A stretch of DNA of 64,000 nucleotides, from positions 310,001-374,000 of the forward strand of contig JAENZJ010000001.1 in assembly GCA_016841325.1 (NCBI GenBank). Reading direction: 5' to 3'. Numbering within the stretch: the first letter of the stretch is position 1; each line of letters starts with the position of its first letter. The notes under the pieces were generated by a model. It saw only the letters and a program-made list of their open reading frames with translations, had not been told where the DNA came from and did no database searches. The position numbers and the translations under genes are program-made. Source of the stretch: Thermincola carboxydiphila. GTDB taxonomy: Bacteria; Bacillota; Thermincolia; Thermincolales; UBA2595. Shown one piece after another: positions 46,479-61,859 of the stretch.

Positions 46479-46711
46479 AAAATACCTCCGTAATGCTTGC
46501 TGTTCAGTTTACCTGAAGATTATATAGTTTCTTCCTTGATGTCCCGGACTCCTCCTTTTTGCAGAAGATTGTTGCAGTTTTGCAGCGAGTTTATTTGCCT
46601 TGCCAGTGACGCCAAAAGAAAAAATTTTATTGGAGGAAAAAGCCGCAAAAAGTAGAAAAAATAAGATGACCTTTTTGCGTCCGCAAAGAGGCCTTTCAGG
46701 AGGTGTTAAGA

Positions 46712-48400
46712 GTGACAGGATTTTTGCAGAGAGCCTTGCTCCTGCCCATACTATTGACTATGTTCATGATGACAGCAGTAACAGGGGCTAACCCTGTCCT
46801 GGCTGCACCGTATGATGACCCTTTACTTGCCAGTTATACGGGGCCCAATGGAATAGAGATTTTAAGCTATCATCCCCAGTGGACGGAACAGGCTAAACTC
46901 AAAGAAGTCTGGGATGAGCTGATGCGCAATACTCATTTTGAGGAGATCAGGTATTTCAAGAGAGTTAAAATTTACCAGGGAAACTACAACAGTATGTACC
47001 GAGGTGGTATCCAGACAATAACCTGGAGCGACGGACGAAAGAAACAAGAGTTTTTAAAAGACAATGAAATCATATACTTCCAAGATCCTGATGACAAAGA
47101 AGAAAATGGTATGGCTGTAACCCTGGCACACGAATATGGCCACCACTTTACGATATACTATCTGTTTAAACGGGAGAAAAATGACCTCCACGGGAACTGG
47201 CAGGACTCCCGGTATGCCAGGCTGCGGGGACTGGTGAATAACAAAAATGTTAATTCAGATGAAAATGCTGACCACCAGTGGCAGCCGGTTGAAATAGCGG
47301 CATCTGACTATGTTCAGTTATTTGGTTCACCCAATGCCAGGAAAATCTTTTATTTTGAAGACCAGCCGGACCGGACCGGGACTGTTCGTTTCAGTACCAC
47401 AATGTACAATATCTGTCCCCAGGAAAATACTTATCTGCCCCTGGCCGCACAGGTCCCGGGACTTTACGAATACTGGATGCAGCTGGCAGGACAGCCCGCC
47501 GGGGACCTGAATCAGGCGCCTTTACCCCCGGTCCTGACCCTGACCGGAAAAAGGTATAGGGAGTATACGACACCCTATTATCAATTTCAGTGGAGCCGGA
47601 GCCTTGATGATAAGGACAATCCCCTGACATATACCCTCTTGGAATACGATTCCCCGGATGACAGGCTGGGTCAGCCTATAACAGTTGCTGCCGAGAGGTA
47701 TTCTGCTGAACGGCTGCTTTATCCGGGAGAAGGGGGGATCAAATATTACCGGGTGCTGGTTTCTGACCCTGAGGGCCTTATCGTGGCTTCTGATATGCTG
47801 AAAGTAGATCTGGATAACCCCGATTTTCAGGAACCGCCTCCTGACATAATGTTCCGTGATGTCCCTGCCGGTTTTTGGGCTGTAGGTTCTATCCGTCCTC
47901 TTGTCGAAAGAGGTATCCTGCAGGGATATACAGATAATACATTTAAGCCGGGACGCCGGATAACCAGGGCTGAATTTGCGGCTGTTTTATGTAAGGCGCT
48001 CGGTATCAAGCCGGCTGACAGCGGAAACGGGTTTACTGACACTGCCAGCCATTGGGCCGGGGCATATATTACTGCTGTAAAGGAAGCGGGATTGCTTAAT
48101 GGATACGGTGACAACACTTTTGGGCCTGACAGGCCCATCAGCCGGGCTGAGACGGCTGTAGTGCTGCAGAAGGCCCTGGAAGTGGCAGAGGGGACCGGTC
48201 AAACAGGCCGGGCAGCCGCCGAAACGGATGGAGCAGCCAAATTTACTGATGTCACAGGCCACTGGGCAGAAAAGGAGATTCTTCAGATTACGGGCGGCCT
48301 TATCATGAGCGGGTATCCGGATGGGACCTTCAAACCTGACGGAAAACTTACCAGGGCTGAGGCGGCCGCAGTCTTGGCCAGAGCTGTGCAAATTCATTAA
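46712..48400 (+). CDS. SLH-anchored protein with HExxH metallopeptidase motif
   Basis: 562 residues. Signal peptide ending near ANPVLA (about 30). Residues 35-270 form a domain with HEYGHH at 140-145, a zinc-protease HExxH, plus a downstream 'EIAASDYVQLFGS' that could supply the third ligand. About 275-365 is a fibronectin-like segment. Residues 375-562 are three SLH domains ('FRDVPAGFWAVGSIRPLVERGILQGYTDNTFKPGRRITRAEFAAVL' and two more) for cell-wall attachment. Substrate unknown. GTG at 46712 follows GGAGGT by 7 bases. Upstream, a GCAAAAAG/CTTTTTGC hairpin lies at 46645-46678. Confidence 0.83.
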   Translation: MTGFLQRALLLPILLTMFMMTAVTGANPVLAAPYDDPLLASYTGPNGIEILSYHPQWTEQAKLKEVWDELMRNTHFEEIRYFKRVKIYQGNYNSMYRGGIQTITWSDGRKKQEFLKDNEIIYFQDPDDKEENGMAVTLAHEYGHHFTIYYLFKREKNDLHGNWQDSRYARLRGLVNNKNVNSDENADHQWQPVEIAASDYVQLFGSPNARKIFYFEDQPDRTGTVRFSTTMYNICPQENTYLPLAAQVPGLYEYWMQLAGQPAGDLNQAPLPPVLTLTGKRYREYTTPYYQFQWSRSLDDKDNPLTYTLLEYDSPDDRLGQPITVAAERYSAERLLYPGEGGIKYYRVLVSDPEGLIVASDMLKVDLDNPDFQEPPPDIMFRDVPAGFWAVGSIRPLVERGILQGYTDNTFKPGRRITRAEFAAVLCKALGIKPADSGNGFTDTASHWAGAYITAVKEAGLLNGYGDNTFGPDRPISRAETAVVLQKALEVAEGTGQTGRAAAETDGAAKFTDVTGHWAEKEILQITGGLIMSGYPDGTFKPDGKLTRAEAAAVLARAVQIH

Positions 48401-48419
48401 TCAGAAAGGAGTACCCATA

Positions 48420-49766
48420 GTGAGTGTTTTTGACGGAACAAGGCTTCCCGCCGGTTTTTTCCGGTTAGATACTGAACGTTTAAGAGAAGGCTGGTATTCT
48501 GATGCCTATTTTCTGAATACCGAACGGATCCTGGCAGCCCTTGCAAAAGAGGGCTACAGTTTCAACGGGGTCAGTGACATCACTGAATTAAATCCTGTCA
48601 TCGTAGATACCGGAGATATTAATGTTGAGATGCAGTTTTTTACACGAAGGCGGCCTTTCAGCCTGATTGCCGGTACGGATGAGGCCCTTGCCATACTCAG
48701 GGAATGTACCGGATATTTTGATGATCAGGGACAATTTGTGAATACATATGAAAACCTGGAAGTTGAGGCTGTAATGGACGGTGTTTTCACTTATTATGAA
48801 GGGAATCCTGAACAGGTGAGCCCTGTCCTCAGGATACGGGGAAGGTACCGGGACTTTGCCAGGCTGGAGACTCCTCTCCTGGGTGTCCTTACTGAGGCCA
48901 CCAGGATTGCCACTAATGTTTATCTCCTCCTGGCTGCTGCCGGGGGAAAGGATATCCTGTTTTTCCCGGCACGGTTTGCCCATTACAAAATACAGGAAAT
49001 GCACGGATATGCATATGCCCTGGCAGTCAGGGCTTATAACCAAAAATACGGTAAACGCTCCCGGGCAATCGTCTCTACTGATGCCCAGGGAAACTGGTGG
49101 GGCGCCAGGGGCGGCGGTACGGTTGCCCATGCCTCGATAGCTTGTTTCCTGGGAGATACGGCTGAGACAATGATGCAGTTTTGCCGTATTATTCCTCCGG
49201 ACGTACCCCGGATAGTGCTGGTTGATTTTCATAATAACTGTATCGGCGATACCCTGACGGTGATGGGAAAAATGTTTGCAGCATACCGGGAATTGTATCA
49301 GGAAGGTCGGCTGGAAGAAGCCAGGAGGTACGGGCTGTTCGGTGTCAGGCTTGATACTTCCGGGGATATGAGGGATATTTCCATATCCCCCCTTGGTGAT
49401 AAGAAGCTGGATTGTGGAGTTAACCCCAGGCTGGTATGGAATGTCAGGAAGGCTATAGACAGGGCTTATGAGTCATGGGACCTGCCTGAGAACGATGCAG
49501 ACTTGGCCAGGGCCTGGTGTCAACAGGTAAAAATAATTGCCACCGGCGGCTTTGATGCCGAAAAGATCAGCCGTTTTGAAGAATTGCGGGTTCCTGTGGA
49601 TATTTACGGAGTGGGTTCTTCACTGCTGGAAAACTCTAGTATAAATAATACCAAAAATGACTTTACTGCTGATATTGTAAAGGTCAGACTTAACGGTCAA
49701 TGGCATGAATTATGCAAGACAGGCCGCAAGGCCTGTAGCAATCCCGATCTGGAGCCGGTCCGCTAA
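48420..49766 (+). CDS. Nicotinate phosphoribosyltransferase family protein
   Basis: 448 residues, the family size. It makes nicotinate mononucleotide from nicotinate and PRPP in NAD salvage. Recognisable parts: 'EGWYSDAYFLNTERILA' (N-terminal), 'VLTEATRIATNVYLLLAAA', 'ISPLGDKKLDCGVNPRLVWNVRKAID', 'ATGGFDAEKISRFEELRVPVDIYGVGSSLL' (phosphate-binding glycine loop). It belongs to the PncB-like clostridial subgroup. The GTG at 48420 is chosen for AAAGGAG; in-frame codons further left lie inside the SLH gene. Confidence 0.87.
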   Translation: MSVFDGTRLPAGFFRLDTERLREGWYSDAYFLNTERILAALAKEGYSFNGVSDITELNPVIVDTGDINVEMQFFTRRRPFSLIAGTDEALAILRECTGYFDDQGQFVNTYENLEVEAVMDGVFTYYEGNPEQVSPVLRIRGRYRDFARLETPLLGVLTEATRIATNVYLLLAAAGGKDILFFPARFAHYKIQEMHGYAYALAVRAYNQKYGKRSRAIVSTDAQGNWWGARGGGTVAHASIACFLGDTAETMMQFCRIIPPDVPRIVLVDFHNNCIGDTLTVMGKMFAAYRELYQEGRLEEARRYGLFGVRLDTSGDMRDISISPLGDKKLDCGVNPRLVWNVRKAIDRAYESWDLPENDADLARAWCQQVKIIATGGFDAEKISRFEELRVPVDIYGVGSSLLENSSINNTKNDFTADIVKVRLNGQWHELCKTGRKACSNPDLEPVR

Positions 49767-49971: not shown

Positions 49972-52900
49972 ATGAGCATGTTAAGAAGGATAGCACTCAT
50001 TATTACCGTATTTTTCCTGGGGGCGTACGGGCTCTTTTACATATTAAACGGTGGGCTTAAAGCTGCTGCAGAACCTGCCGTAAACCCGCATGGCAATTAT
50101 GACATTAATTCTCAGTGTGAAAAATGCCATTCAACCCACAGCTCGCTTGGTTCATACCTGATGACCTCCAGTACCCAGAGAGAAACCTGTTATTCCTGCC
50201 ATGATGGCAGTAATTCCAGCCCCAATATCAGGGGGGAATTCGGTGAGGAGACAATCGGGTCCTCAGTGTACTCAGGCAGCGGGTCTCTGCACCCTGTACC
50301 TACAGGCACACAAAAATGTACCAACTGCCATGACCCCCACCTGGCAAATGAGAAATCGGCAGGAGGGACTGCCGGGCTGCTGGCAGTAGGTGAAGCCGGT
50401 TATTCCTCGGGAAATGATGTATGCGGGGCCTGCCACGGTAGTGGGAGCAGCCTGCCCGGGGGAGATATGCTGGCAGATTTTGTCTATACACCACATGATA
50501 CAAGCATGGACCCGCCGGCATCAGGGACCCTGATTAAATGTGTCCGCTGCCACCAGCCCCACGGGTCGCCTTATGATATGCTTCTGAGGAATACCATCAC
50601 CGGCCCCGGTGGAGTTGTATATCAGGTAAACGGGAATAACAACTCCGTATGTTTTGGCTGCCATACCGACGGTATGGGCGGGTATTCAGGGAGTGCAACT
50701 TTTAATGCTGTCTTCCATGGTTCAAAAACAACCTCAACTGTGGCCACAACTACTTATGGTGACACCGGATATGAGGCCACACTCTGCCTCAACTGTCACG
50801 AACCCCATGGGAAAACGGGTATCTCTGATTACAGAAGAGATGAGGGAAATGCCCTTTGCGCCAAATGTCATGATGACAGTTCGGTTGTCCGTCCGGATAA
50901 TTATTCGTATCGTGGTATCGATACATATAATAATACTCCCCATGGCAGTCTTGAACCCATAGCAATGCCATATCTTTATACAACAGGCACTGATGGTACC
51001 GAAATTTGGGAGGCATCCGGATACATTGACCAGCAACCGACACCGGATGTGCCGGGGAATCCGGCAGGAGCCGGTCCCAAAAATAATATCTCTGTCAGTG
51101 ACTCATCATTCTGGGTTACTGACCTTGCCGTGGCCCAGGATGTATATAACTACCAGGTTTACAAGTTCCATGTTACCCAGGATGTTGATAATATCAGGCA
51201 GCTTAAGGGAAAATGGGTGGGCTATGGAGAGCCGACTACGGGCCATGATACTTCCCTCCTGATATGGAACAAATACAGTCTCGACTGGGAAATGCTTGAT
51301 ACTGCACTGCTTGGTGACCCGGCCAAACCGGGTACTTTATCCTGGTCAAAATCAACCGGATTTGAAGACTACCTTGACGCCAACAATGATATATACATTT
51401 TGGCCCAGGCCAGACATGATGCTTCCGGGCCGGTAATTACCGGAGTTAATGCCGGTACCATATCAGCAACAGGCGCCATAATAAACTGGACAACCGGGGA
51501 GTATGCCACTTCTTATGTCTACTACGGTACAGTTGCCAATGTTTACCCTGATTGGGTCAGTGTGGACGGATATGCTCTGTCCCATTCGGTACCTATAACA
51601 GGCCTGACCAATGATGTAACATATCATTATCAGGTGGTTTCAGTTGATAAGCTGGGCAATGAATCCCGTTCTGCTGATTATACATTCCACACTTCTTATG
51701 CTCCGTCTGTGCCAACGGGATTATCCGGACCCGCAACTGACCCCTCGCCAAATAATTGGGTTACGGTGAATTTTTCATGGAACCCCTCAACTGACCTTGA
51801 TCCCACCGATACGGTAACCGGGTACCAGGTTGAGGTAAGAGTTGATGGGAACTATTATACAACAGTTTCTACGGACACAAACAGTTGTTCAGTTTACCTG
51901 GGATATGACGGGCCGGGTACGGTATCGTGGCAAGTCAGAGCCAAGGATAATCATAATACCTGGTCCGCATGGTCAGCACCGGCTAGTTTTCCCCATACCG
52001 GCCCTGCACCGGATACATGTGCAAAGCTGCCGGACCCGTATCCTGCCACAAGGGTGGCCGGACACAGTAATTACAAACAGGATAAGCTCGGACAGGGCAG
52101 AACCGGTATAATTAAGACTGCCTTCTTAGGGGAACCAATTTCTGCTGCCAGTCCGGCGGGCCATTACTCACTGAATACCGACTATGTGGAGCTGGAAGTG
52201 AGGGCTGTTGACCCAACTGTCCCCAATGGCTATTGCGGTAACTGCCACACCCCTCACGGTAAAGCTGATGCTTACGGAAATCCTTTCCCCAAGCAGTTGC
52301 AGACGGGGCTGAATAGCACCTGTTTCGGCGGGGGGCTGGGCTGCCACAGTGACCCGGACAATTCCTTCCGCGGCATAAATATTTATGAAAAATTTAATTC
52401 CGGTTCCAACCCGCTGAACCGTCACAGTGTGGACCCGGCAGAACAGCAGGCCGGGGGTACCAGGCTGGATTGTGTTAACTGCCATGAACCACATCTGAAT
52501 ACGGCCACAAACCGGCTGGTTGACCCGGCAAACAGGTACAGCCTTTACTACCTTAACAGCAACATACCTGAATATATGGGTGATTCCGGCGAGGTGTACC
52601 TACGGGTCCGGGCCAGGCATGACGGACAGGAGCCGGCATTTACGACCAATCCTTATGTGTCCTATATGAGTGACACCAGTGCCAACATTACATGGGGTAC
52701 TAATGAAAAGACATCAGGTTATGTAGAATACGGACCTACTACTGCTTACGGTTCCAGGGTTGACAAGAATTATTTGGCTACTTCCTTTACAGCCGGACTG
52801 TCAGGGTTAGAGCTTTATACTAACTATCATTACCGGGTTTATGCCGTTGACCCGTCAGGAAACTATGTGTTTTCTGGTGACCAGGTATTGGATAGTACCC

Positions 52901-55900
52901 CTCCGGTAATCACTTCCGGGCCGTCAGTTGTTAATTCGACCGGTACTGAATGTGACGTTACCTGGCAGACCAATGAAAAGGCTTCCCGGTGGGTGGAGTA
53001 TAATGATACTGTCAATTATACTGTTTATGGTTTTACTTATTCTGAAGGGACCAATAGCAGTCCCGGAACTTCTCACAGTGTTCACCTGAGCGGCCTGGTC
53101 CCGGGAACGGAATATATTTACCGGGTAAAATCGCAGGATGTGCGGGGAAACACTAAAACCAGCGGCAATTTTACCTTTAAGTCCAGTAATTCTCCCGGAG
53201 TACCTACCATTACATCGGTTAGCGATTCGGCGCCCGGCCAGCTCAATTTTAAATTAAGTGCTGTCTGGAATACTGTTTATGACCCGGACCCGGGTGACAC
53301 AGTTGAATACTATATGGAGCTGAGTACCAATAATTTTGCCAGTACAGTTGCCAATTCGGGGTGGACCAGTTCTACCAACTGGAGTATTGACCGGACGTGC
53401 GATTATGATACAACAACTACTTATTATTTCAGGGTAAAGGCCCGGGATAACTGGGGAGCGCAATCCCTATGGTCAACGGTTAAAACACTGACTCATTACG
53501 GGCCAAGTTCCGGAGGCTCATGTCCCATCCTGTATTCCTGGAACGGGAAACAGTTTGAGTTCATTACTGACCTGGCGAGTTCCAATGTCGGGCTGGAGAT
53601 AGCCCCAGGCCGGTTTTCAGTGCCGATTCCTGACCTTCCGGTGATTATACCGTGGGGTAAACTGCAGGAAAAAGACGGGCTGTATACAATAAAAATCAAG
53701 ACTGAACGAGATGAGGTGGATTTCATAGACAACCTGGTCCTGCAGGCAGTTGACCATCCGGAGGGCACCAGGTTAGCTCTGAATGATTTTCAGCGGGAGG
53801 ATAACCCGACAATTATTCATACTTATGCCAAAGATGTCAGGCCGGTTAAAAAGGCGACCTATGTTAACAACCCTACATATAACGGCGGGCAAAAGTCTAA
53901 ACCGGTTGATATTACGGCAGAAGTAAGTAAGATTGACAACTGGCACGCCAGCGGAACGCTGCTGGATGATAACCAGTTTACCTTAGACCTGGGAGATTTA
54001 AGCGGAGCCAGGCACATTAAGCTGGTAGCTATCGGCTGGACCGAGTATGCCGATGAGACGGATCGGGCGCGACGGGTAGAAAATGCCAAAAAGGGAATCA
54101 AACCGGCGCCACGGTTAATAGAAATTCTACAGCCAGACGGGACCTGGAAATCCGAAAAAATCAGGCATTTCTCCGGGTACACCAAACCGGTGGTTATTGA
54201 CCTGACCGGGAAATTCCCTGAAGGAACCACCAAGTATGTGGTCAGACTGAGGGGCATGTACAGGCCGCACTTTGATTTTTTTGGTGTGGATACTACCCCT
54301 GATTCCATTGCTGAAATAGTCAGCCTGCAACCCCTGACAGCACAGCTGGAGTACCGCGGTACGGCTAAGTACACCAAATTTCCGGCACCTTATCACGATT
54401 ATGATGAATTGACCAATAACACCCTGACACATGAGGGCAGGTTCACCCGGTACGGAGACGTGCTGCCACTGGTAGAGAAAGTAGATGACAAGCTGGTGGT
54501 CATGGACACAGGTGATGAGCTTACCGTGACCTTTAAAGCCCTGCCGCCTCCCGGGCCGGGCATGACCAGAACTTTTGTCTTAAAACCTTGGCAGTATTAT
54601 AAGGAATATGAGTATGCCAAAAGTCATCCCATGCCCTTCAGGGATATGGAGATGACAAATTGGCCTGATTCTTTGGGGGAATACCCCAGGGAACTGGAGG
54701 AATACGTAAAAGAATGGAATACTCGAATTCATGGTGATTTTGATGAATCTAGTATTGATGAGGATAAATCCGGCATATTCGACAGAATTAAGGGATTCCT
54801 GAGCGGTATCCTGGATTGGCTGCAGGGGCTTTGGGCCAGGCTGTTTGGCGGTCCTGAAACCAGAACTGCTGATTCTGTTTACCGGGAAATACCATATCAG
54901 CCCAATGATTATCCGGAAGATTTTCAGGTGCAGCCTGTCGAAAGCCATTATTCACTGAATACGGACTATATTGAGCTCCAGGCTGATAAAGGTACTGCCA
55001 TCAGTGTGTATAAACCGGATTCGGCCGGATTTGGCATGTGGGAGAGCAGTACGGATCCCTCACCTTCGGCACCGGGCAGCTCAGCATTGGGTGAGTCTTC
55101 TGCAGTCCTTAGTGATAACAATGTGTATTTCACCACTGATTATTATCCCACACCCAATCAGGATGACGGAAAGTACAATTACCAGATGTTCAGGTTTGCC
55201 ATCAATGAAGACCCGGCAAAGCTGTATAGTTTCAATATTTTCTGGAAGGGATACGGTGAAAACTCTGATGGATATAATGTCTCCTTAGGGGTATGGAACT
55301 TTGTGTATTCCAGGTGGGATGATGTGATTAACCAGAAGATGGGTTCAGAAACCGCTGTCAGTGTACCCAGAAGGGTTGACATGCAGCCATACTGCAATAA
55401 GTGCCACAGTGGTTCGGTACCCCTTGGTGTGGATCTTGGTCCGATAACCAAAAATATAGGCGCTACCTATACCGGTGATATTCATGGCAGTGCCGGCGGA
55501 TACCAGACTTATGTGGCCGATTACGGTATCGGGCGTGTCAATGGAACCATCAAGAACCCTTATACCAGGGGGACTACAACACTGCAGTGTTATGACTGTC
55601 ACGACCTGCACGGGTCTGAAAACATCTATCACCTGAAGGAGAATCCCAATGGACAGACACCGGGGAAAATTTCCGGCACCGGACTGGCCAATAACAGTGA
55701 GTTCCTTGCTTTTTGCCAGAGCTGCCATGCCGGAACCCTGTATAACTTCCACCAGGGCTGCCTGGGGTGTCATCATGAAGACCATGGGGACAGTAATCCA
55801 CCGATGGCAGATGATTTTGGCAGGGCTTGTGCCAGCTGCCATTATCATGGCGCTATCTATCCGGCACACAGTTCAGGATGTGACCACTGCTACCTTGGTC

Positions 55901-55920
55901 AGCCGGTCAGGGCCTTTTAG
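49972..55920 (+). CDS. Giant multiheme c-type cytochrome with fibronectin-like domains
   Basis: 1982 residues. The N-terminal hydrophobic segment (5-27) is a signal or anchor. Fifteen CxxCH heme motifs occur in three groups: eight in residues 49-300, two near 753 and 833, and five in 1806-1955. A CFGGGLGCH near 790 and a final CDHCY may be variants. Between them are fibronectin-type III-like domains (about 484-690, 880-1170), a domain opening 'CPILYSWNGKQFEFITDL' (about 1183), and a twice-used module ('HYSLNTDYVELE', 'HYSLNTDYIELQ'). The design fits an extracellular electron conduit. It heads the operon with ResB/CcsA. No SLH or sortase signal is seen. Confidence 0.92.
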   Translation: MSMLRRIALIITVFFLGAYGLFYILNGGLKAAAEPAVNPHGNYDINSQCEKCHSTHSSLGSYLMTSSTQRETCYSCHDGSNSSPNIRGEFGEETIGSSVYSGSGSLHPVPTGTQKCTNCHDPHLANEKSAGGTAGLLAVGEAGYSSGNDVCGACHGSGSSLPGGDMLADFVYTPHDTSMDPPASGTLIKCVRCHQPHGSPYDMLLRNTITGPGGVVYQVNGNNNSVCFGCHTDGMGGYSGSATFNAVFHGSKTTSTVATTTYGDTGYEATLCLNCHEPHGKTGISDYRRDEGNALCAKCHDDSSVVRPDNYSYRGIDTYNNTPHGSLEPIAMPYLYTTGTDGTEIWEASGYIDQQPTPDVPGNPAGAGPKNNISVSDSSFWVTDLAVAQDVYNYQVYKFHVTQDVDNIRQLKGKWVGYGEPTTGHDTSLLIWNKYSLDWEMLDTALLGDPAKPGTLSWSKSTGFEDYLDANNDIYILAQARHDASGPVITGVNAGTISATGAIINWTTGEYATSYVYYGTVANVYPDWVSVDGYALSHSVPITGLTNDVTYHYQVVSVDKLGNESRSADYTFHTSYAPSVPTGLSGPATDPSPNNWVTVNFSWNPSTDLDPTDTVTGYQVEVRVDGNYYTTVSTDTNSCSVYLGYDGPGTVSWQVRAKDNHNTWSAWSAPASFPHTGPAPDTCAKLPDPYPATRVAGHSNYKQDKLGQGRTGIIKTAFLGEPISAASPAGHYSLNTDYVELEVRAVDPTVPNGYCGNCHTPHGKADAYGNPFPKQLQTGLNSTCFGGGLGCHSDPDNSFRGINIYEKFNSGSNPLNRHSVDPAEQQAGGTRLDCVNCHEPHLNTATNRLVDPANRYSLYYLNSNIPEYMGDSGEVYLRVRARHDGQEPAFTTNPYVSYMSDTSANITWGTNEKTSGYVEYGPTTAYGSRVDKNYLATSFTAGLSGLELYTNYHYRVYAVDPSGNYVFSGDQVLDSTPPVITSGPSVVNSTGTECDVTWQTNEKASRWVEYNDTVNYTVYGFTYSEGTNSSPGTSHSVHLSGLVPGTEYIYRVKSQDVRGNTKTSGNFTFKSSNSPGVPTITSVSDSAPGQLNFKLSAVWNTVYDPDPGDTVEYYMELSTNNFASTVANSGWTSSTNWSIDRTCDYDTTTTYYFRVKARDNWGAQSLWSTVKTLTHYGPSSGGSCPILYSWNGKQFEFITDLASSNVGLEIAPGRFSVPIPDLPVIIPWGKLQEKDGLYTIKIKTERDEVDFIDNLVLQAVDHPEGTRLALNDFQREDNPTIIHTYAKDVRPVKKATYVNNPTYNGGQKSKPVDITAEVSKIDNWHASGTLLDDNQFTLDLGDLSGARHIKLVAIGWTEYADETDRARRVENAKKGIKPAPRLIEILQPDGTWKSEKIRHFSGYTKPVVIDLTGKFPEGTTKYVVRLRGMYRPHFDFFGVDTTPDSIAEIVSLQPLTAQLEYRGTAKYTKFPAPYHDYDELTNNTLTHEGRFTRYGDVLPLVEKVDDKLVVMDTGDELTVTFKALPPPGPGMTRTFVLKPWQYYKEYEYAKSHPMPFRDMEMTNWPDSLGEYPRELEEYVKEWNTRIHGDFDESSIDEDKSGIFDRIKGFLSGILDWLQGLWARLFGGPETRTADSVYREIPYQPNDYPEDFQVQPVESHYSLNTDYIELQADKGTAISVYKPDSAGFGMWESSTDPSPSAPGSSALGESSAVLSDNNVYFTTDYYPTPNQDDGKYNYQMFRFAINEDPAKLYSFNIFWKGYGENSDGYNVSLGVWNFVYSRWDDVINQKMGSETAVSVPRRVDMQPYCNKCHSGSVPLGVDLGPITKNIGATYTGDIHGSAGGYQTYVADYGIGRVNGTIKNPYTRGTTTLQCYDCHDLHGSENIYHLKENPNGQTPGKISGTGLANNSEFLAFCQSCHAGTLYNFHQGCLGCHHEDHGDSNPPMADDFGRACASCHYHGAIYPAHSSGCDHCYLGQPVRAF

Positions 55921-55943
55921 GGGTCCCGTCAGGAGGTGTAGTT

Positions 55944-57170
55944 ATGAAACTGAGGTCTGTAATGATCCGAATAATTCTGATAACCACCTTATTTGCCGTG
56001 TTGGCAGTTTATGCCTGGCAGATTGAGGGCCAGGCTGCCTCTCCCGGGAAAGAGAGGTATATGGTCGGGCAGAGGGAAATCATCATTGGTGATGAGGGCA
56101 ACACCATTGCCGGGGACTATGTTGACCCCACCCCTAAGGGCATTGGTGTCAAGACCATCTACCTGGCCTTTACCTGTGTCAGCAACAGGCCGCTCTTTAA
56201 TGAGATCATACCTGCTTTTAAAGAATACTGGTTTCAGAAAACAGGGGAGCGAGTGAGGTTTGAGACCGGTTATTCCACACTGGACTTTGATAAGATTGCA
56301 ACTCTGGTTAACGGGGAACCGGCTCATGTACTTATCTCAACTTCTGCCCATGACTCTGTCAGAAGAGGCTACGAAACCACCAGGTGGCAGCAGGAGGCCA
56401 ACCGCGGCGTGGTATATAGCACTCCTGTTGTTTTTCTGGTGCGCAAGGGGAATCCCAAGGGGATTTATACGTATGCGGACCTGACGAGACCTGAGGTAAT
56501 GGTTGTCCATCCCAATCCCATAAATGCAGCAGGCTTTTGGCCTGTTTACGGTATCTATGGTTCAGCTCTCAGGGCTTCTGAGCTGGAAACCGGCCGCAGG
56601 GACAAGCAGGCTGCCCAGGAATTATTGAGGGCTGTGGAGGAAAATGCTGTTTACAACACAAGTACTTCAAAAGGGGCCGGAATACAGTTTCTGGAGCATG
56701 AAGTCGGTGATGTCCTCATCTGGTTTGAGAGCAGGGCCCTTACCACAGTCAGGAAAGATGATTCAGTGGAAATGGTTATCCCACCAAATACGGTGATGGC
56801 TGACCTCACTGTTTACAAGATGAAAAAAATCAAAAACGGGGAATATGAGGCACTGATCAACGAGTTTATTGATTTTATGTTTACTGAAGATTCTCAGGAC
56901 AGTTTTGCCAAGTACGGTTTCCGTCCGTCAGATGAAAAGGTTCTTTCCAGGCACAGGGAGTTTACCTCCCTGGATAATCCGTTTCCCGTAGATTATCTCG
57001 GTAATGCTACCCAGCTGAAAAAGGAACTGATCCTCGACAAGTGGGTCAAAATAAATAATGCCAGAAAAGGCCTGAAAAACACAACAAAATATGAAGTCAG
57101 GGCCATTGAAGAGGACGTGGCTGACGGGGCAGACAAAGAATCAATTACCGGAGATGTCTATACCGACTAA
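55944..57170 (+). CDS. Exported sulfate-binding-like (Sbp/CysP type) protein
   Basis: 408 residues. A signal peptide (about 1-32) precedes a periplasmic-binding-protein fold like the sulfate/thiosulfate/molybdate group: 'YLAFTCVSNRPLFNEIIPAFKEYWFQKTGERVRFETGYSTL', 'TPVVFLVRKGNPKGIYTYADLTRPEVMVVHPNPINAAGFWPVYGIYGSAL', 'GDVLIWFESRALTTV'. No lipobox is seen and no ABC permease or ATPase is nearby. It starts 23 bases after the cytochrome gene, so it is more likely a partner of the electron-transfer system than a transport component. Ligand unknown. Confidence 0.8.
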   Translation: MKLRSVMIRIILITTLFAVLAVYAWQIEGQAASPGKERYMVGQREIIIGDEGNTIAGDYVDPTPKGIGVKTIYLAFTCVSNRPLFNEIIPAFKEYWFQKTGERVRFETGYSTLDFDKIATLVNGEPAHVLISTSAHDSVRRGYETTRWQQEANRGVVYSTPVVFLVRKGNPKGIYTYADLTRPEVMVVHPNPINAAGFWPVYGIYGSALRASELETGRRDKQAAQELLRAVEENAVYNTSTSKGAGIQFLEHEVGDVLIWFESRALTTVRKDDSVEMVIPPNTVMADLTVYKMKKIKNGEYEALINEFIDFMFTEDSQDSFAKYGFRPSDEKVLSRHREFTSLDNPFPVDYLGNATQLKKELILDKWVKINNARKGLKNTTKYEVRAIEEDVADGADKESITGDVYTD

Positions 57171-57215
57171 GATGAACTATGAGCGGTCTGAATAACTACC
57201 AAACCGGAGGGGAAT

Positions 57216-58322
57216 ATGGCGGCAAAGCGGTATCCGGGAAAAATATGGGCTTTGGTCAAATCCAGAGTCCTGGCAATAGTATTAATTTTCATCATCTCTA
57301 CTGCAGTTACCGTAGATGCCTTTGAACTGATGGGCCGCTGGGTCCCCTCAGAAGTTCCCCAGACCGGAAACATATACCGCTATTGGTGGTTTAAGGCACT
57401 GGCGGTTGTCCTGCTGGTAAATCTTGCAGCATGTACTACAGACAGGATTATCAGGCAGTTTAAATCAAAGGCCGGATTTTTAAGCAGGTGGGGCTCAGTG
57501 TTTTTTCATGCCGGACTGGCAGTGATCATTGTGGGAACCCTGTTTACCGGTTCCTACCGGGCACACAGCACCATTAAACTGGTTCAGGGTGAAACCAAGC
57601 AAATCCCATACCGGGCGTTGACTGCTCAGGAGGACTTTAACCGCGGCAGCGGACCTGATGTCAGCTTTACTCTGGATAAACAGGAAATCAAATTCAATGC
57701 TTCGGGGAGAATAGGAGAGGTATTTTCACACATTACCATAACTGACCATACCGGCCGTGACAGAAGCTATGATTTGGCTGAACTGGAACAGTTTTCTTAC
57801 CGGGGTCTCTATATGTTTCCCGATTTATATGGCTATGCTGTGAAAATTGGCATCAGGAGCAATCCGGGAGAAACGGAGAGCATTACCATACCCTTAGAGA
57901 CCACAGAGTTTTCTGAAGGTATCAGGTCTTATTCACAAAAAAACCTGAAGATAGCTTCTCTGCCATACAATTTTTCGGTGAACTTTTATCCTGATATAGC
58001 TGTTGGCGGGGATGCCGTAAAATCGGTCAACAGGTCATATCAACTGGAAAACCCCGGACTGTTCATTATGGCTAACAATGATAATGAGATTGGGGCACAG
58101 CAAGTCATCCCACTGGGGGGCGCTGTCAAACTTGGCGGATACACCCTGACTTTTGAGCAGGTAAAGCCCTGGACGGAACTGTCGGTTGTTTATGACCCGG
58201 GGGCCGGTCTGGTATTTGCCGGAATTATTATGGCAATTGCCGGGCTGTCAATTACCCTGTTGAGCCGGCCGTTTCCTGCTGTGAAGGGCCAGAATTTGAA
58301 AAGGAGTAACAATAATGAGTAG
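57216..58322 (+). CDS. resB: Cytochrome c biogenesis protein ResB
   Basis: 368 residues. Helices near 15-32, 57-75, 90-108 and 335-352 flank a large extracytoplasmic domain, the ResB/Ccs1 layout. 'SRWGSVFFHAGLAVIIVGTLFTGSYR' contains the conserved His segment. With CcsA it delivers heme across the membrane and attaches it to CxxCH sites (System II). It overlaps ccsA by 8 bases. A dedicated copy beside a 15-heme cytochrome is fitting. Confidence 0.9.
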   Translation: MAAKRYPGKIWALVKSRVLAIVLIFIISTAVTVDAFELMGRWVPSEVPQTGNIYRYWWFKALAVVLLVNLAACTTDRIIRQFKSKAGFLSRWGSVFFHAGLAVIIVGTLFTGSYRAHSTIKLVQGETKQIPYRALTAQEDFNRGSGPDVSFTLDKQEIKFNASGRIGEVFSHITITDHTGRDRSYDLAELEQFSYRGLYMFPDLYGYAVKIGIRSNPGETESITIPLETTEFSEGIRSYSQKNLKIASLPYNFSVNFYPDIAVGGDAVKSVNRSYQLENPGLFIMANNDNEIGAQQVIPLGGAVKLGGYTLTFEQVKPWTELSVVYDPGAGLVFAGIIMAIAGLSITLLSRPFPAVKGQNLKRSNNNE

Positions 58323-59181
58323 TGCAGAGACTCAGTTAACTTTACTATGGTTATCGGTCAGCTTTTGTTTTTTGGCCACAGTCTGTTTTTTCAGTGCCCT
58401 GAGTTTTAAGAAAGAGAAGCTGGAGAATTACGGGGTTACCTGTTCCCATATTGCCATCCTGCCGATGGCGGCGGCGCTGGCCCTGCGCTGGATCGAAACG
58501 GGGCATGTCCCCAGTATCGGGACATATGAGGTATTCACCATATATGCTGCAGGTGTTCTCCTGTTTTATAATATCATTCAGTATTGGAAACCAAGTGTCA
58601 CCATCGCCGGGACTGTGGTTCTGCCTGTAGTGACCCTGATGACCGGAATTGCCGTAATGAGTTCAACTGAGCTTACTGAACTGCCAAAGACATATTTCAC
58701 CTATTGGCTGGGGATCCATATGCTTTTTGCCACCCTTGCTCTCGGTGGAGTCCTGGTTGCCGCAGGTTTGAGTATCGCTTACCTGATTAAGGGCCGCCAG
58801 GAAGCCAGGGGCAGGGTAAATCCCTTACTGAAAAAACTGCCTGACCTGGACAGGCTGGATTACCTGGGTCACCGGATTACCCTTTTTGCCTTTCTCATGA
58901 TAGGGATTATGATTGCCTCAGGTGCTGTGTGGGCTTATAAGTCATGGGGGCGTTACTGGGGATGGGACCCTATTGAAACCTGGTCTTTGATTAGCTGGCT
59001 GGTTTATGGACTTTACCTGCACCTCAGACTGACAGGTGTGAAAGGAAAGCTGGCTTCCTGGCTGCATATAGCTGTAGTCCTGATAGTGATATTTTCGTTT
59101 TATGGTGCACCGTATCTGTATCCAACAATTCATGACAGGTTTGTTAATGCCGACAGCATCTACCTTCAGGGGTCAGACTAA
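58315..59181 (+). CDS. Cytochrome c biogenesis protein CcsA/ResC
   Basis: 288 residues, eight predicted helices. The tryptophan-rich heme-handling motif 'GRYWGWDPIETWSLISWLVYGLYLHLR' is the CcsA/CcmF/ResC signature; flanking histidines are in 'WLGIHMLFATLALGG' and 'ASWLHIAVV'. It forms the heme-export and ligation complex with ResB, encoded just upstream with overlapping ends. Confidence 0.93.
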   Translation: MSSAETQLTLLWLSVSFCFLATVCFFSALSFKKEKLENYGVTCSHIAILPMAAALALRWIETGHVPSIGTYEVFTIYAAGVLLFYNIIQYWKPSVTIAGTVVLPVVTLMTGIAVMSSTELTELPKTYFTYWLGIHMLFATLALGGVLVAAGLSIAYLIKGRQEARGRVNPLLKKLPDLDRLDYLGHRITLFAFLMIGIMIASGAVWAYKSWGRYWGWDPIETWSLISWLVYGLYLHLRLTGVKGKLASWLHIAVVLIVIFSFYGAPYLYPTIHDRFVNADSIYLQGSD

Positions 59182-59196
59182 AAGGGGGTTTATAGC

Positions 59197-60417
59197 ATGG
59201 GAAGAAATCCCGTGTCCAAAGAGGAACTTGACAGAGAGATTCTTGACTTTATTAAAGAGGGTACCGGCTACGATGATGAAGAAAGGTTTAATAACCTGGC
59301 TTTAAAGGAATTTGCCTACCAGTATTACGAAAACGGGGTATATCAAAAACTGTGCTGCTCCAGGGGGGTTAGCCCAGGGGATATCAGCCACTGGTCTGAA
59401 ATACCTCCCCTGCCCACTAATGCGTTTAAGGAGGCTGTGATAGCATCATTTCCTCTTTCTGAGACTGAGCTGTCCCTCTTAACCAGCGGTACCACCGACC
59501 CTCATGCCAGGGGTAAGATATACCGTGACAGGGATAGCCTGGAAATCATTAAACTCTGTAATTATATGCTCACAAAGGAGTTTGTGTTTCCTGATGTGGA
59601 GCGGATGAAAATAATGCTTTTGGTGCCATCACCCAGGGTGGCTCCAGGTATGCCTATGGCCTATGGCCTGGAACAGGCGAAAAACGAGTTTGGTACTGCA
59701 GACAGTAAGTATTATATTACTCCCAACGGGCTGGAAGTATCTGAACTGGTAGCAGATCTCAAAGAGGCAGAGGAGAAGGGTGACCCTGTGTGCCTGATGG
59801 GGGCCACTTCAGGATTTGTGTTTTTTTACAATCATTGCCGTGAACAGGGGATTCGTTTTACACTGCCGCCCGGAAGCAGGGTCTGTGACGGCGGAGGCTA
59901 TCAGGGCACCTTTGGTGAGTGTTCCCGGGAACGGTTTTATGAAGTGGTCAAAGACCTTTTTGGTATTCCCGTACACTATTGTGTCAATACCCTGGGTATG
60001 GGTGAGAGTGGGACCAACTATTTTGATAATGTACTCAGGGACCACCTGCGCGGCTTACCCGCCGGAGAAAGATATAAATGTGACCTGCCATGGACCAGGA
60101 CGACAGTAGTAGGCTTCAGGACAGGCCAGCGCATGCCCAGGGGCGAGCTGGGCCTGATCAGGCATTATGACCTGACTAACAGGGCCACTGTTTTGGCGGT
60201 GCAGACTGACAACATAGGATACGAGACTGATCAGGGATTTGAAATACTGGGACGATCTGCAAATATCCCGGGCTATGATGTCCAGCTTCCCGGAGGAATG
60301 CTGAAAGACTGGATACTGGGCACCGGGAGCGGGCATCCCTGTTCCACAGTGACAGACGGGATGATGAAACAGGGGCACCCCTGTTCCACAGTGGCAGACG
60401 GGATGATGAAAAAATGA
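59197..60417 (+). CDS. LuxE-type acyl-protein synthetase
   Basis: 406 residues. LuxE enzymes activate a fatty acid as acyl-AMP and transfer it to a protein cysteine. 'IPPLPTNAFKEAVIAS', 'LTSGTTDPHARGKIYRD' (the AMP-binding Ser/Thr/Gly loop) and 'RFYEVVKDLFGIPVHYCVNTLGMGESGTNYFDNVLRD' are typical. No LuxC reductase is adjacent. The last 28 residues are two near-identical 14-residue copies (GHPCSTVxDGMMK), each with a Cys. It begins 15 bases after ccsA and its stop overlaps the radical SAM start. Confidence 0.85.
   Translation: MGRNPVSKEELDREILDFIKEGTGYDDEERFNNLALKEFAYQYYENGVYQKLCCSRGVSPGDISHWSEIPPLPTNAFKEAVIASFPLSETELSLLTSGTTDPHARGKIYRDRDSLEIIKLCNYMLTKEFVFPDVERMKIMLLVPSPRVAPGMPMAYGLEQAKNEFGTADSKYYITPNGLEVSELVADLKEAEEKGDPVCLMGATSGFVFFYNHCREQGIRFTLPPGSRVCDGGGYQGTFGECSRERFYEVVKDLFGIPVHYCVNTLGMGESGTNYFDNVLRDHLRGLPAGERYKCDLPWTRTTVVGFRTGQRMPRGELGLIRHYDLTNRATVLAVQTDNIGYETDQGFEILGRSANIPGYDVQLPGGMLKDWILGTGSGHPCSTVTDGMMKQGHPCSTVADGMMKK
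60331..60414 (+). repeat. Two 42-bp tandem copies at the 3' end of the LuxE gene
   Basis: The 42-bp unit starting GGGCA is repeated head to tail with few changes, encoding GHPCSTVTDGMMKQ and GHPCSTVADGMMKK. Confidence 0.92.
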
Positions 60418-61733
60418 AAATAACCATAGTTTTTTCCAAATATCCCTTTTCCGAACGGTCCCCCGTACTGCCGCCAATACTGGAATACCTGGCGGCACAG
60501 ACCCTTCAGGCTGACCCATCCTTAGAGATTGAGTTAATAGATGCCAATAAGACTCCGGTCAATCCGGACGAACTGAATACCGACCTTGTTGCTATCAGCA
60601 TGATGACTGTTACCGCTCCCTGGGCTTACCGTTTTGCCGATGAGTGCCGTCTGAGGGGGCTTCGTGTGGTTTTGGGGGGGATTCACCCCACAATTCTCCC
60701 CGGAGAGGCTGCGGGTCATGCTGATGCTGTCGTCGTCGGAGAGGCGGAGTCAATATGGCCGGAACTGTTATGTGATGCCAAAGCGGGAAAACTGAAAACC
60801 ATTTATTGGGGCCGTAAAATGGCCCTGGATGGTATCCCTGTTCCCATTGACAGTGACCTGAAAAGGGACTACCGTTTCCGGGCTTTTTTCACCATGAGAG
60901 GCTGTCCGTATAGCTGCAGGTTTTGCAGCGTACCCGGTGTTTACGGTAAATCAATACGTTACCGCCCGGTACAGGAGGTTGCTGCAGAGATAGAAACACG
61001 TGCGGGTAAGGTATGGTTTAACGGTGATGACAACATCTGGGGCGGGGATATTAAGAGGAATCTGGCCCTGTTTGGAGAAATAGCCCAGGGCACCAGAAAG
61101 TACTGGTACGGATTTGGTGACTTAAAAACTGTTCAGGGTGATGATGGAGACCGCTTACTTGCTGCAGCAGGGAAAAGCGGGCTTTTTTCAGTCATGGTCG
61201 GATGGGAGAGCAATTCTGAAACGGGCCTGAGGCACTTTGGTGCGGCAGGTAAGCAGGGCAGTGACAGGATTGAAGCAATCAGGCGCATCCAGAGTCATGG
61301 CATATATGTTGTCCTTTTTATAGTGATTGGCGGTATGTATGATGACATTGACAGTTTCAGAAGAACCCTGGAGATTGCCGATACCCTTAATGTGGGTGTT
61401 CATCCTATTTTAATCATGCCACTTCCCGGAACAGACCTTTTTGAGGAGTACAGGAGTTGCCTGCTGCCGGGACAGGGATGGGAGCATTTCACCGGCATTA
61501 ATGCTGTATTTGAACATCCTGATGCCCAAATGACAGTATTCAGACGGGAGCAGGAATACCACCGGCTTCGCCGGGACTTATACAGTTTGGGAAGGATCGT
61601 CAGGAGAATTTCCATGATACCTCTCCGGGGTTTCCCACACTCCCATTTTCTTAGTTTCATGAAGGAAATTTCCATGCACCGGGAAATGAAAAAGGCTCAT
61701 CAGGTGTGGCAGGAGAAATATTTACATATGTAA
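60414..61733 (+). CDS. B12-binding-domain radical SAM protein
   Basis: 439 residues. About 1-145: a cobalamin-binding-like Rossmann domain ('LVAISMMTVTAPWAYRFADECRLRGLRVVLGGIHPTILPGEAAGHADAVVVGEAE'), without the DxHxxG motif, as in BchE/HpnJ-type enzymes. About 165-370: the radical SAM barrel with the cluster motif 'CPYSCRFC' (C-x3-C-x2-C). Such proteins methylate or rearrange unactivated carbons. Substrate unknown; tight linkage to LuxE suggests a fatty-acyl or protein-bound substrate. Starts 3 bases before the LuxE stop. Its stop codon lies in a TTTACATATGTAAA palindrome related to the downstream repeats. Confidence 0.88.
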   Translation: MKITIVFSKYPFSERSPVLPPILEYLAAQTLQADPSLEIELIDANKTPVNPDELNTDLVAISMMTVTAPWAYRFADECRLRGLRVVLGGIHPTILPGEAAGHADAVVVGEAESIWPELLCDAKAGKLKTIYWGRKMALDGIPVPIDSDLKRDYRFRAFFTMRGCPYSCRFCSVPGVYGKSIRYRPVQEVAAEIETRAGKVWFNGDDNIWGGDIKRNLALFGEIAQGTRKYWYGFGDLKTVQGDDGDRLLAAAGKSGLFSVMVGWESNSETGLRHFGAAGKQGSDRIEAIRRIQSHGIYVVLFIVIGGMYDDIDSFRRTLEIADTLNVGVHPILIMPLPGTDLFEEYRSCLLPGQGWEHFTGINAVFEHPDAQMTVFRREQEYHRLRRDLYSLGRIVRRISMIPLRGFPHSHFLSFMKEISMHREMKKAHQVWQEKYLHM

Positions 61734-61743
61734 AACATTTTTA

Positions 61744-61772
61744 TTGATTTATGCATGTCTGGCTGGTATAAT
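61744..61772 (+). promoter_or_regulatory. Promoter of marR-hemE-hemH
   Basis: TTGATT (61744-61749), 17 bases, TATAAT (61767-61772) with an extended TGG before the -10. Transcription should start near 61779, within the operator array. Confidence 0.85.
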
Positions 61773-61774
61773 TA

Positions 61775-61859
61775 TTTACAGACGTAAACAGTTTACATTG
61801 GTAACATGTTTACATTGGTAACATATTTACATCAGTAACATATTTCTATCTGTAAAAAT
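61775..61859 (+). promoter_or_regulatory. Five 17-bp tandem operator repeats
   Basis: Five head-to-tail 17-bp units begin at 61775, 61792, 61809, 61826 and 61843; units 2 and 3 differ only in the last base. Each reads TTTACANNNGTAA-like, an imperfect dyad. A related perfect palindrome TTTACATATGTAAA sits at 61721. The array covers the start site and leader ahead of marR, so it is probably bound by the MarR protein itself. Confidence 0.85.

Follow-up and report, generated by a model that had tools for sequence, protein, structure and literature searches.

Among the described systems closest to the locus studied here, System II cytochrome c maturation uses the synthase subunits ResB and CcsA. 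Canonical LuxE, the fatty acyl-protein synthetase of bioluminescence (PDB 7xc6), acts on long-chain fatty acids. Cys364 is cited in PMC8301110 as the acyl-transfer site of the enzyme of P. phosphoreum (Photobacterium). BchE, the anaerobic cyclase of Mg-protoporphyrin monomethyl ester, acts on a porphyrin whose C13 propionate is esterified, oxidising this propionate and closing ring E (PMC13142503). We have analysed a window of 64,000 nucleotides (the whole stretch of DNA that was studied) from Thermincola carboxydiphila in which a ResB-CcsA pair stands between a multiheme c-type cytochrome (MHC) with an exported protein resembling sulfate-binding proteins (SBP) on one side and a LuxE-like protein with a B12-binding radical SAM enzyme (rSAM) on the other (Table 1). 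Thermincola is a Gram-positive genus known for extracellular electron transfer. As in other System II loci with dedicated copies, the window contains a ResB-CcsA pair beside its own cytochrome, which here has a non-canonical CX6CH motif. Its cluster also encodes a B12 rSAM and an enzyme for activating acids, a combination for which we know of no precedent.

Table 1. Features of the window (position 1 is its first nucleotide) and, where a locus is named, of other loci
Feature	Coordinates	Strand	Basis
SLH-domain gene	46703-48400		
NAPRT/QRPTase-like protein, frame overlapping the end of the SLH-domain gene	48321-49766		
Giant multiheme c-type cytochrome (MHC)	49972..55920	+	ORF, Pfam domains
Non-canonical heme motif CX6CH, cytochrome aa 784-792	52321-52347		CFGGGLGCH
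Exported SBP-like protein	55944..57170	+	SBP_bac_11
ResB, System II cytochrome c synthase subunit	57216..58322	+	PF05140, 90 bits
CcsA, System II cytochrome c synthase subunit	58315..59181	+	PF01578 118 bits; TIGR03144 157 bits
LuxE-like acid-activating (ANL-type) acyl-protein synthetase	59197..60417	+	PF04443; PDB 7xc6
Tandem repeat in luxE, Cys tail HPCSTVTDGMMKQG-HPCSTVADGMMKK	60331..60411	+	42-bp period, 1.9 copies
Cys codons of the two acyl-Cys-like motifs of the luxE tail	60340, 60382		
B12-binding radical SAM enzyme (rSAM), 439 aa	60414..61733	+	B12-binding + Radical_SAM domains
[4Fe-4S] motif CPYSCRFC (CX3CX2C) of the window rSAM	60903..60926	+	sequence
Promoter-like site and direct repeats upstream of marR	61744-61845		
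Second giant MHC, just past the window	L078:2650 onward (G000:C36)		
Membrane protein of 105-113 aa beside BchE-like rSAMs	L030:7180-7521, L054:10453-10788, L055:8509-8847, L061:3644-3961		

An earlier note on this DNA had described a tightly spaced or overlapping six-gene array. All six ORFs were found on the plus strand where it had placed them, with domains above the Pfam cut-offs (Paired_CXXCH, SBP_bac_11, ResB, Cytochrom_C_asm, LuxE, B12-binding, and Radical_SAM), and the gaps from the cytochrome to the rSAM gene measure 23, 45, -8, 15, and -4 bp. Judging from this spacing, the six genes look like one transcription unit, as a gap of 161 bp with a promoter-like site and operator-like repeats sets them off from marR-hemE-hemH. 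The site is of the extended -10 type (TTGATT-17-TGGTATAAT) and is followed by direct repeats of 17-18 bp (GTTTACATTGGTAACAT) whose copy number varies among Thermincola genomes; they look like a putative MarR operator array controlling marR-hemE-hemH-hemY. The genes hemE-hemH-hemY lie downstream of this locus in G000-G003, the four genomes that have it; the window itself corresponds to G000:C36:310001-374000. In G000 a second giant MHC (2335 aa, 16 CXXCH) comes after hemH-hemY, just past the window, so that the heme genes have a cytochrome on either side. The claimed gene order is kept in G001 and G002 but not in G003, where the same genes are arranged as LuxE-rSAM-ResB-CcsA-MHC-SBP-hemEHY. An NAPRT/QRPTase-like protein is encoded upstream of the array, and a NAPRT homologue is also found upstream of luxE in G003.

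The cytochrome (1982 aa, with a signal/anchor helix and rich in fn3-like domains) deserves to be called giant, as the earlier note had it, by its length but not by its heme count, which amounts to 15 CXXCH and the single CX6CH (CFGGGLGCH). The latter is invariant in the four cytochrome orthologues (4/4) and may explain why ResB and CcsA are dedicated to this locus. Other CX3CH and CX4CH motifs were seen in related MHCs, and in some relatives giant cytochromes with 49-58 CXXCH adjoin ResB-CcsA together with LuxE or rSAM-LuxE (L022, L024, L025, and L029). An orthologue of the SBP-like protein is present within the same cluster in G001, G002, and G003. The adjacency of ResB and CcsA to a c-type cytochrome identifies the pair as System II; the window CcsA stays below the cut-off of the NCBIfam CcsB equivalog (TIGR03144, 157 vs 187.6 bits) and we regard it as a divergent dedicated copy.

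We have surveyed the arrangement in one phylum sample of 398 genomes, with the genes of the relatives taken from our own ORF calls. The LuxE type found in the window belongs to MHC and/or ResB-CcsA clusters in 15 of 17 informative loci from several families, a count that leaves out G223 (contig too short) and the canonical, LuxC-linked LuxE of G015, G130, and G156. The B12-rSAM partner lies beside LuxE, nearby, or fused to it in a single protein. Fused rSAM-LuxE proteins are paralogous to the window pair and occur in eight genomes (G000, G001, G002, G003, G006, G007, G008, and G009), with neighbouring cytochromes of up to 58 CXXCH; the fused genes of G000 and G001 have MHC genes as neighbours but not, immediately, ResB-CcsA, the distance to a CcsA gene being ∼13 kb in G000. 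The unfused type is found in G013/G059 and in G113. The tie of LuxE and rSAM to the cytochrome that the earlier note had drawn is thus kept in 15 of the 17 loci, contrary to the separation in most relatives that the note had set as its refuting outcome, and the pairing is, on these gene neighbourhoods, not accidental; we consider it very probable that LuxE and rSAM form a module linked to cytochrome production. That the pair serves to make a metabolite of no relevance to the cytochrome and shares only its regulation with respiratory genes would agree with G097 and G146, in which LuxE, a small membrane protein, and a BchE-like rSAM have no cytochrome nearby (MHCs are encoded elsewhere in both genomes), and with the varied contexts of distant homologues of the window rSAM. 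However, such genomic convenience would leave the recurrence of the association in several families, the presence of two rSAM families in the same slot, and the differing gene orders and fusions without a reason, and we find it improbable.

The window LuxE exceeds the Pfam cut-off (PF04443, 47.6 vs 24.9 bits) and can be aligned over nearly its full length with 7xc6 (E=4.5e-15). It misses the NCBIfam LuxE equivalog NF052244 by far (51.6 vs 550 bits), which makes it a LuxE-like protein and not a luminescence LuxE. A tree splits the LuxE relatives of the phylum with 100/100 support into a cytochrome/rSAM-linked and a LuxC-linked group. LuxC was absent from all cytochrome-linked clusters of the sample and was found beside the canonical LuxE of G015, G130, and G156, so that a part in the aldehyde pathway was ruled out; neither LuxD nor an acyl carrier protein nor any other lipid gene was recognised in the cytochrome-linked clusters. 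Both types share the LuxE domain and a C-terminal GCS acyl-Cys motif, but the cytochrome-linked type forms its own clade without LuxC, has its Cys tail multiplied, is fused to a B12 rSAM or lies next to one, and sits in cytochrome maturation clusters.

A conserved Cys peptide, CSTVADGM, is repeated in tandem to form the tail; in the 12 genomes searched it occurs at the C-termini of LuxE and, apart from these, nowhere of note. It terminates the full-length cytochrome-linked LuxE proteins and is usually repeated, with the exception of the short ORF of G223 and of the window-type copy of G003, which has lost it. Window-type LuxE carries two copies in the window, three in G001, and one in G002, and the fused proteins present a GCS motif and then one to six repeats of 15 residues each, for instance HGAPCSTVADGMMKA. 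The cysteine is conserved in 36 of 36 units counted and the CSTVAD core is nearly invariant. Furthermore, pS exceeds pN in every array (pS 0.25-0.93 vs pN 0.06-0.44), as in G097 (0.87 vs 0.23) and, most weakly, in G146 (0.49 vs 0.44), and at the codon level the tail is under purifying selection. A mobile element or slippage noise was ruled out as the source of the 42-bp repeat because it is in frame, its cysteine is invariant, and pS is above pN across independent arrays.

A profile built from canonical and cytochrome-linked LuxE places the tail motif on 'KGCSLS' of 7xc6, whose last residue is 367, and thereby on Cys364; the best reading of the tail is therefore an acyl-accepting cysteine that has been multiplied. 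The earlier note had proposed a lipid or acyl modification of the cytochrome; as the acyl-Cys motif is both present and multiplied, acyl chemistry is the right class for LuxE, but no lipid partner was found in the cytochrome-linked clusters. PUFA synthases have tandem acyl carrier proteins and share with the LuxE tail the idea of multiplied attachment sites, although the site is here a short Cys peptide and not a phosphopantetheine domain. Alternatively, the tail could be a RiPP-like, multi-core substrate of the B12 rSAM that would then carry metal or heme during the assembly of the cytochrome. Conserved Cys cores, arranged in tandem on a protein that is continuous with a B12 rSAM, would suit such peptide tailoring, and RiPP C-methyltransferase families are among the secondary matches of the rSAM, although far weaker than BchE. 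However, the alignment with the LuxE acyl-Cys, the reduction of the tail to one copy or none in some members, and the lack of any recognised protease or exporter nearby argue against it, and we consider it very unlikely.

The partner rSAMs of the paralogous loci, fused and unfused, are probably the closest kin of BchE. They reach 430-450 bits with the BchE family TIGR02026, below its cut-off of 481, with the next family at 189 bits or less, and genuine heliobacterial BchE scores 797 bits. As genuine references we used heliobacterial bchE genes (beside bchM, bchL, and bchN) and plasmid-borne ones. In the tree the partner clade stands next to BchE with 84/95 support (BchE itself 100/100), a sister relation that is likely and not certain because the outgroups are long-branched. 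The partners are 37-40% identical to plasmid-borne BchE vs 22-31% to other B12-rSAMs, they have 34 positions in common only with BchE vs eight fixed differences, and they are ∼70 aa shorter. Unlike BchE, they have ResB-CcsA and MHCs as neighbours: in 26 of 33 loci ResB-CcsA is next to the gene of this clade, typically in the order MHC-ResB-CcsA-(small membrane protein or NHL protein)-rSAM, two loci adjoin MHCs (the fused genes of G000 and G001), four are found in other contexts, and for one the contig is too short to tell. LuxE is missing from most of the BchE-like/ResB/CcsA loci and is hence not obligatory for the BchE-like chemistry.

In the case of the non-phototroph hosts, BchM was not found over the cut-off in any of the seven genomes tested, and BchH was not found in six of the seven, G059 having a BchH/CobN-like match; both were found in the heliobacterial controls. 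Mg-protoporphyrin monomethyl ester is therefore unlikely as the substrate of the partner rSAMs, and their being chlorophyll enzymes of hidden phototrophs was ruled out for the genomes tested. A role as the missing anaerobic coproheme decarboxylase was also rejected, as an AhbD-like gene (365 bits, cut-off 500) is located near a CcsA gene on C23.

The window rSAM lies outside the BchE-like clade. It has both domains above the cut-off (PF02310 42.0 and PF04055 41.4 bits), and its orthologues are confined to G000-G003, each time in this cluster, with distant homologues scattered and having no neighbours in common. As it scores only 41.6 bits with TIGR02026 and is ∼25% identical to the LuxE-fused rSAM, the case for heme draws on the paralogous loci. 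We consider that the window enzyme fills the same slot as the BchE-like rSAMs while coming from a different B12-rSAM family, so that the step at the window locus may differ from the BchE-like one. AF2 models of LuxE and rSAM, from three-row alignments, had pLDDT of 39 and 52 and gave no support for a tetrapyrrole pocket.

Our preferred reading, which we hold tentatively and somewhat short of even confidence, is that of a cytochrome-maturation module in which LuxE would load an acid as Cys-thioesters and the B12 rSAM would remodel it, the likeliest acid being a propionate of heme or of a heme precursor. The array would then be a self-contained unit for one extracellular MHC, made up of the cytochrome, its own ResB-CcsA, and a two-enzyme tailoring module. 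LuxE would adenylate the carboxylic acid with ATP to an acyl-AMP and store it on its own flexible tail in thioester linkage to the cysteines, the rSAM would modify the tethered acid by radical chemistry, and the product would reach the cytochrome, on it or in it, through the adjacent ResB-CcsA, which attaches heme. What the sequences show is the gene set and its conservation, the multiplied acyl-Cys motif with the selection on it, and the kinship of the paralogous partners with BchE; we infer what is loaded and how, what the rSAM does with it, and how the product is delivered, the steps of LuxE, rSAM, and ResB-CcsA being taken from the chemistry of their families. Heme propionate is the first candidate because the LuxE thioester would be analogous to the ester of BchE's propionate substrate: it could play the masking role that the methyl ester made by BchM has for BchE, and the rSAM could carry out a BchE-like oxidation or ring chemistry on the propionate. 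The hemE-hemH-hemY genes that come after the window locus also speak for our reading. It is possible, if doubtful, that BchE-related rSAMs, aided by LuxE in some lineages through propionate thioesters on its tandem cysteines, remodel heme before or during its attachment to giant MHCs and so tune extracellular electron transfer, which would make them a hitherto undescribed branch of tetrapyrrole chemistry.

The kinship of the fused rSAMs with BchE points to a tetrapyrrole propionate at least as much as to a lipid. Alternatively, and close to what the earlier note had proposed, LuxE could load a fatty or some other non-tetrapyrrole acid, which the rSAM would methylate or cyclise before its transfer to the cytochrome, to a membrane anchor, or to a redox lipid. 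The long-chain fatty acids used by canonical LuxE and the anchoring that a Gram-positive surface cytochrome requires speak for such tailoring, and the weak matches of the window rSAM include TIGR04072, 'lipid biosynthesis B12/rSAM' (59.5 vs a cut-off of 360 bits). However, neither LuxC nor another recognised lipid gene accompanies the cytochrome-linked LuxE, and the partner rSAMs are kin of BchE and not of ladderane or hopanoid enzymes, so that we take this alternative to be rather unlikely.

The component parts belong to known superfamilies. In the literature searched, which covers few subscription papers, we have found no report of LuxE and a B12 rSAM in cytochrome clusters, nor of a multiplied acyl-Cys tail, of an rSAM fused to LuxE, or of BchE-like enzymes encoded in operons for cytochrome maturation. 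If the heme is indeed chemically altered, models of extracellular electron transfer based on plain heme c would fail for an entire group of electroactive bacteria. Moreover, BchE would then gain a non-photosynthetic, respiratory relative, with possible consequences for how the origin of chlorophyll synthesis is understood. Even if the heme reading is set aside, the fusion of an rSAM with a LuxE whose acyl-Cys tail is multiplied would represent a new kind of acyl-loading architecture.

Finally, a conserved membrane protein of 105-113 aa was observed beside the BchE-like rSAM in ∼11 loci; it is weakly CopD-like and contains the motifs NxFxHD..TG and LL.IKH.
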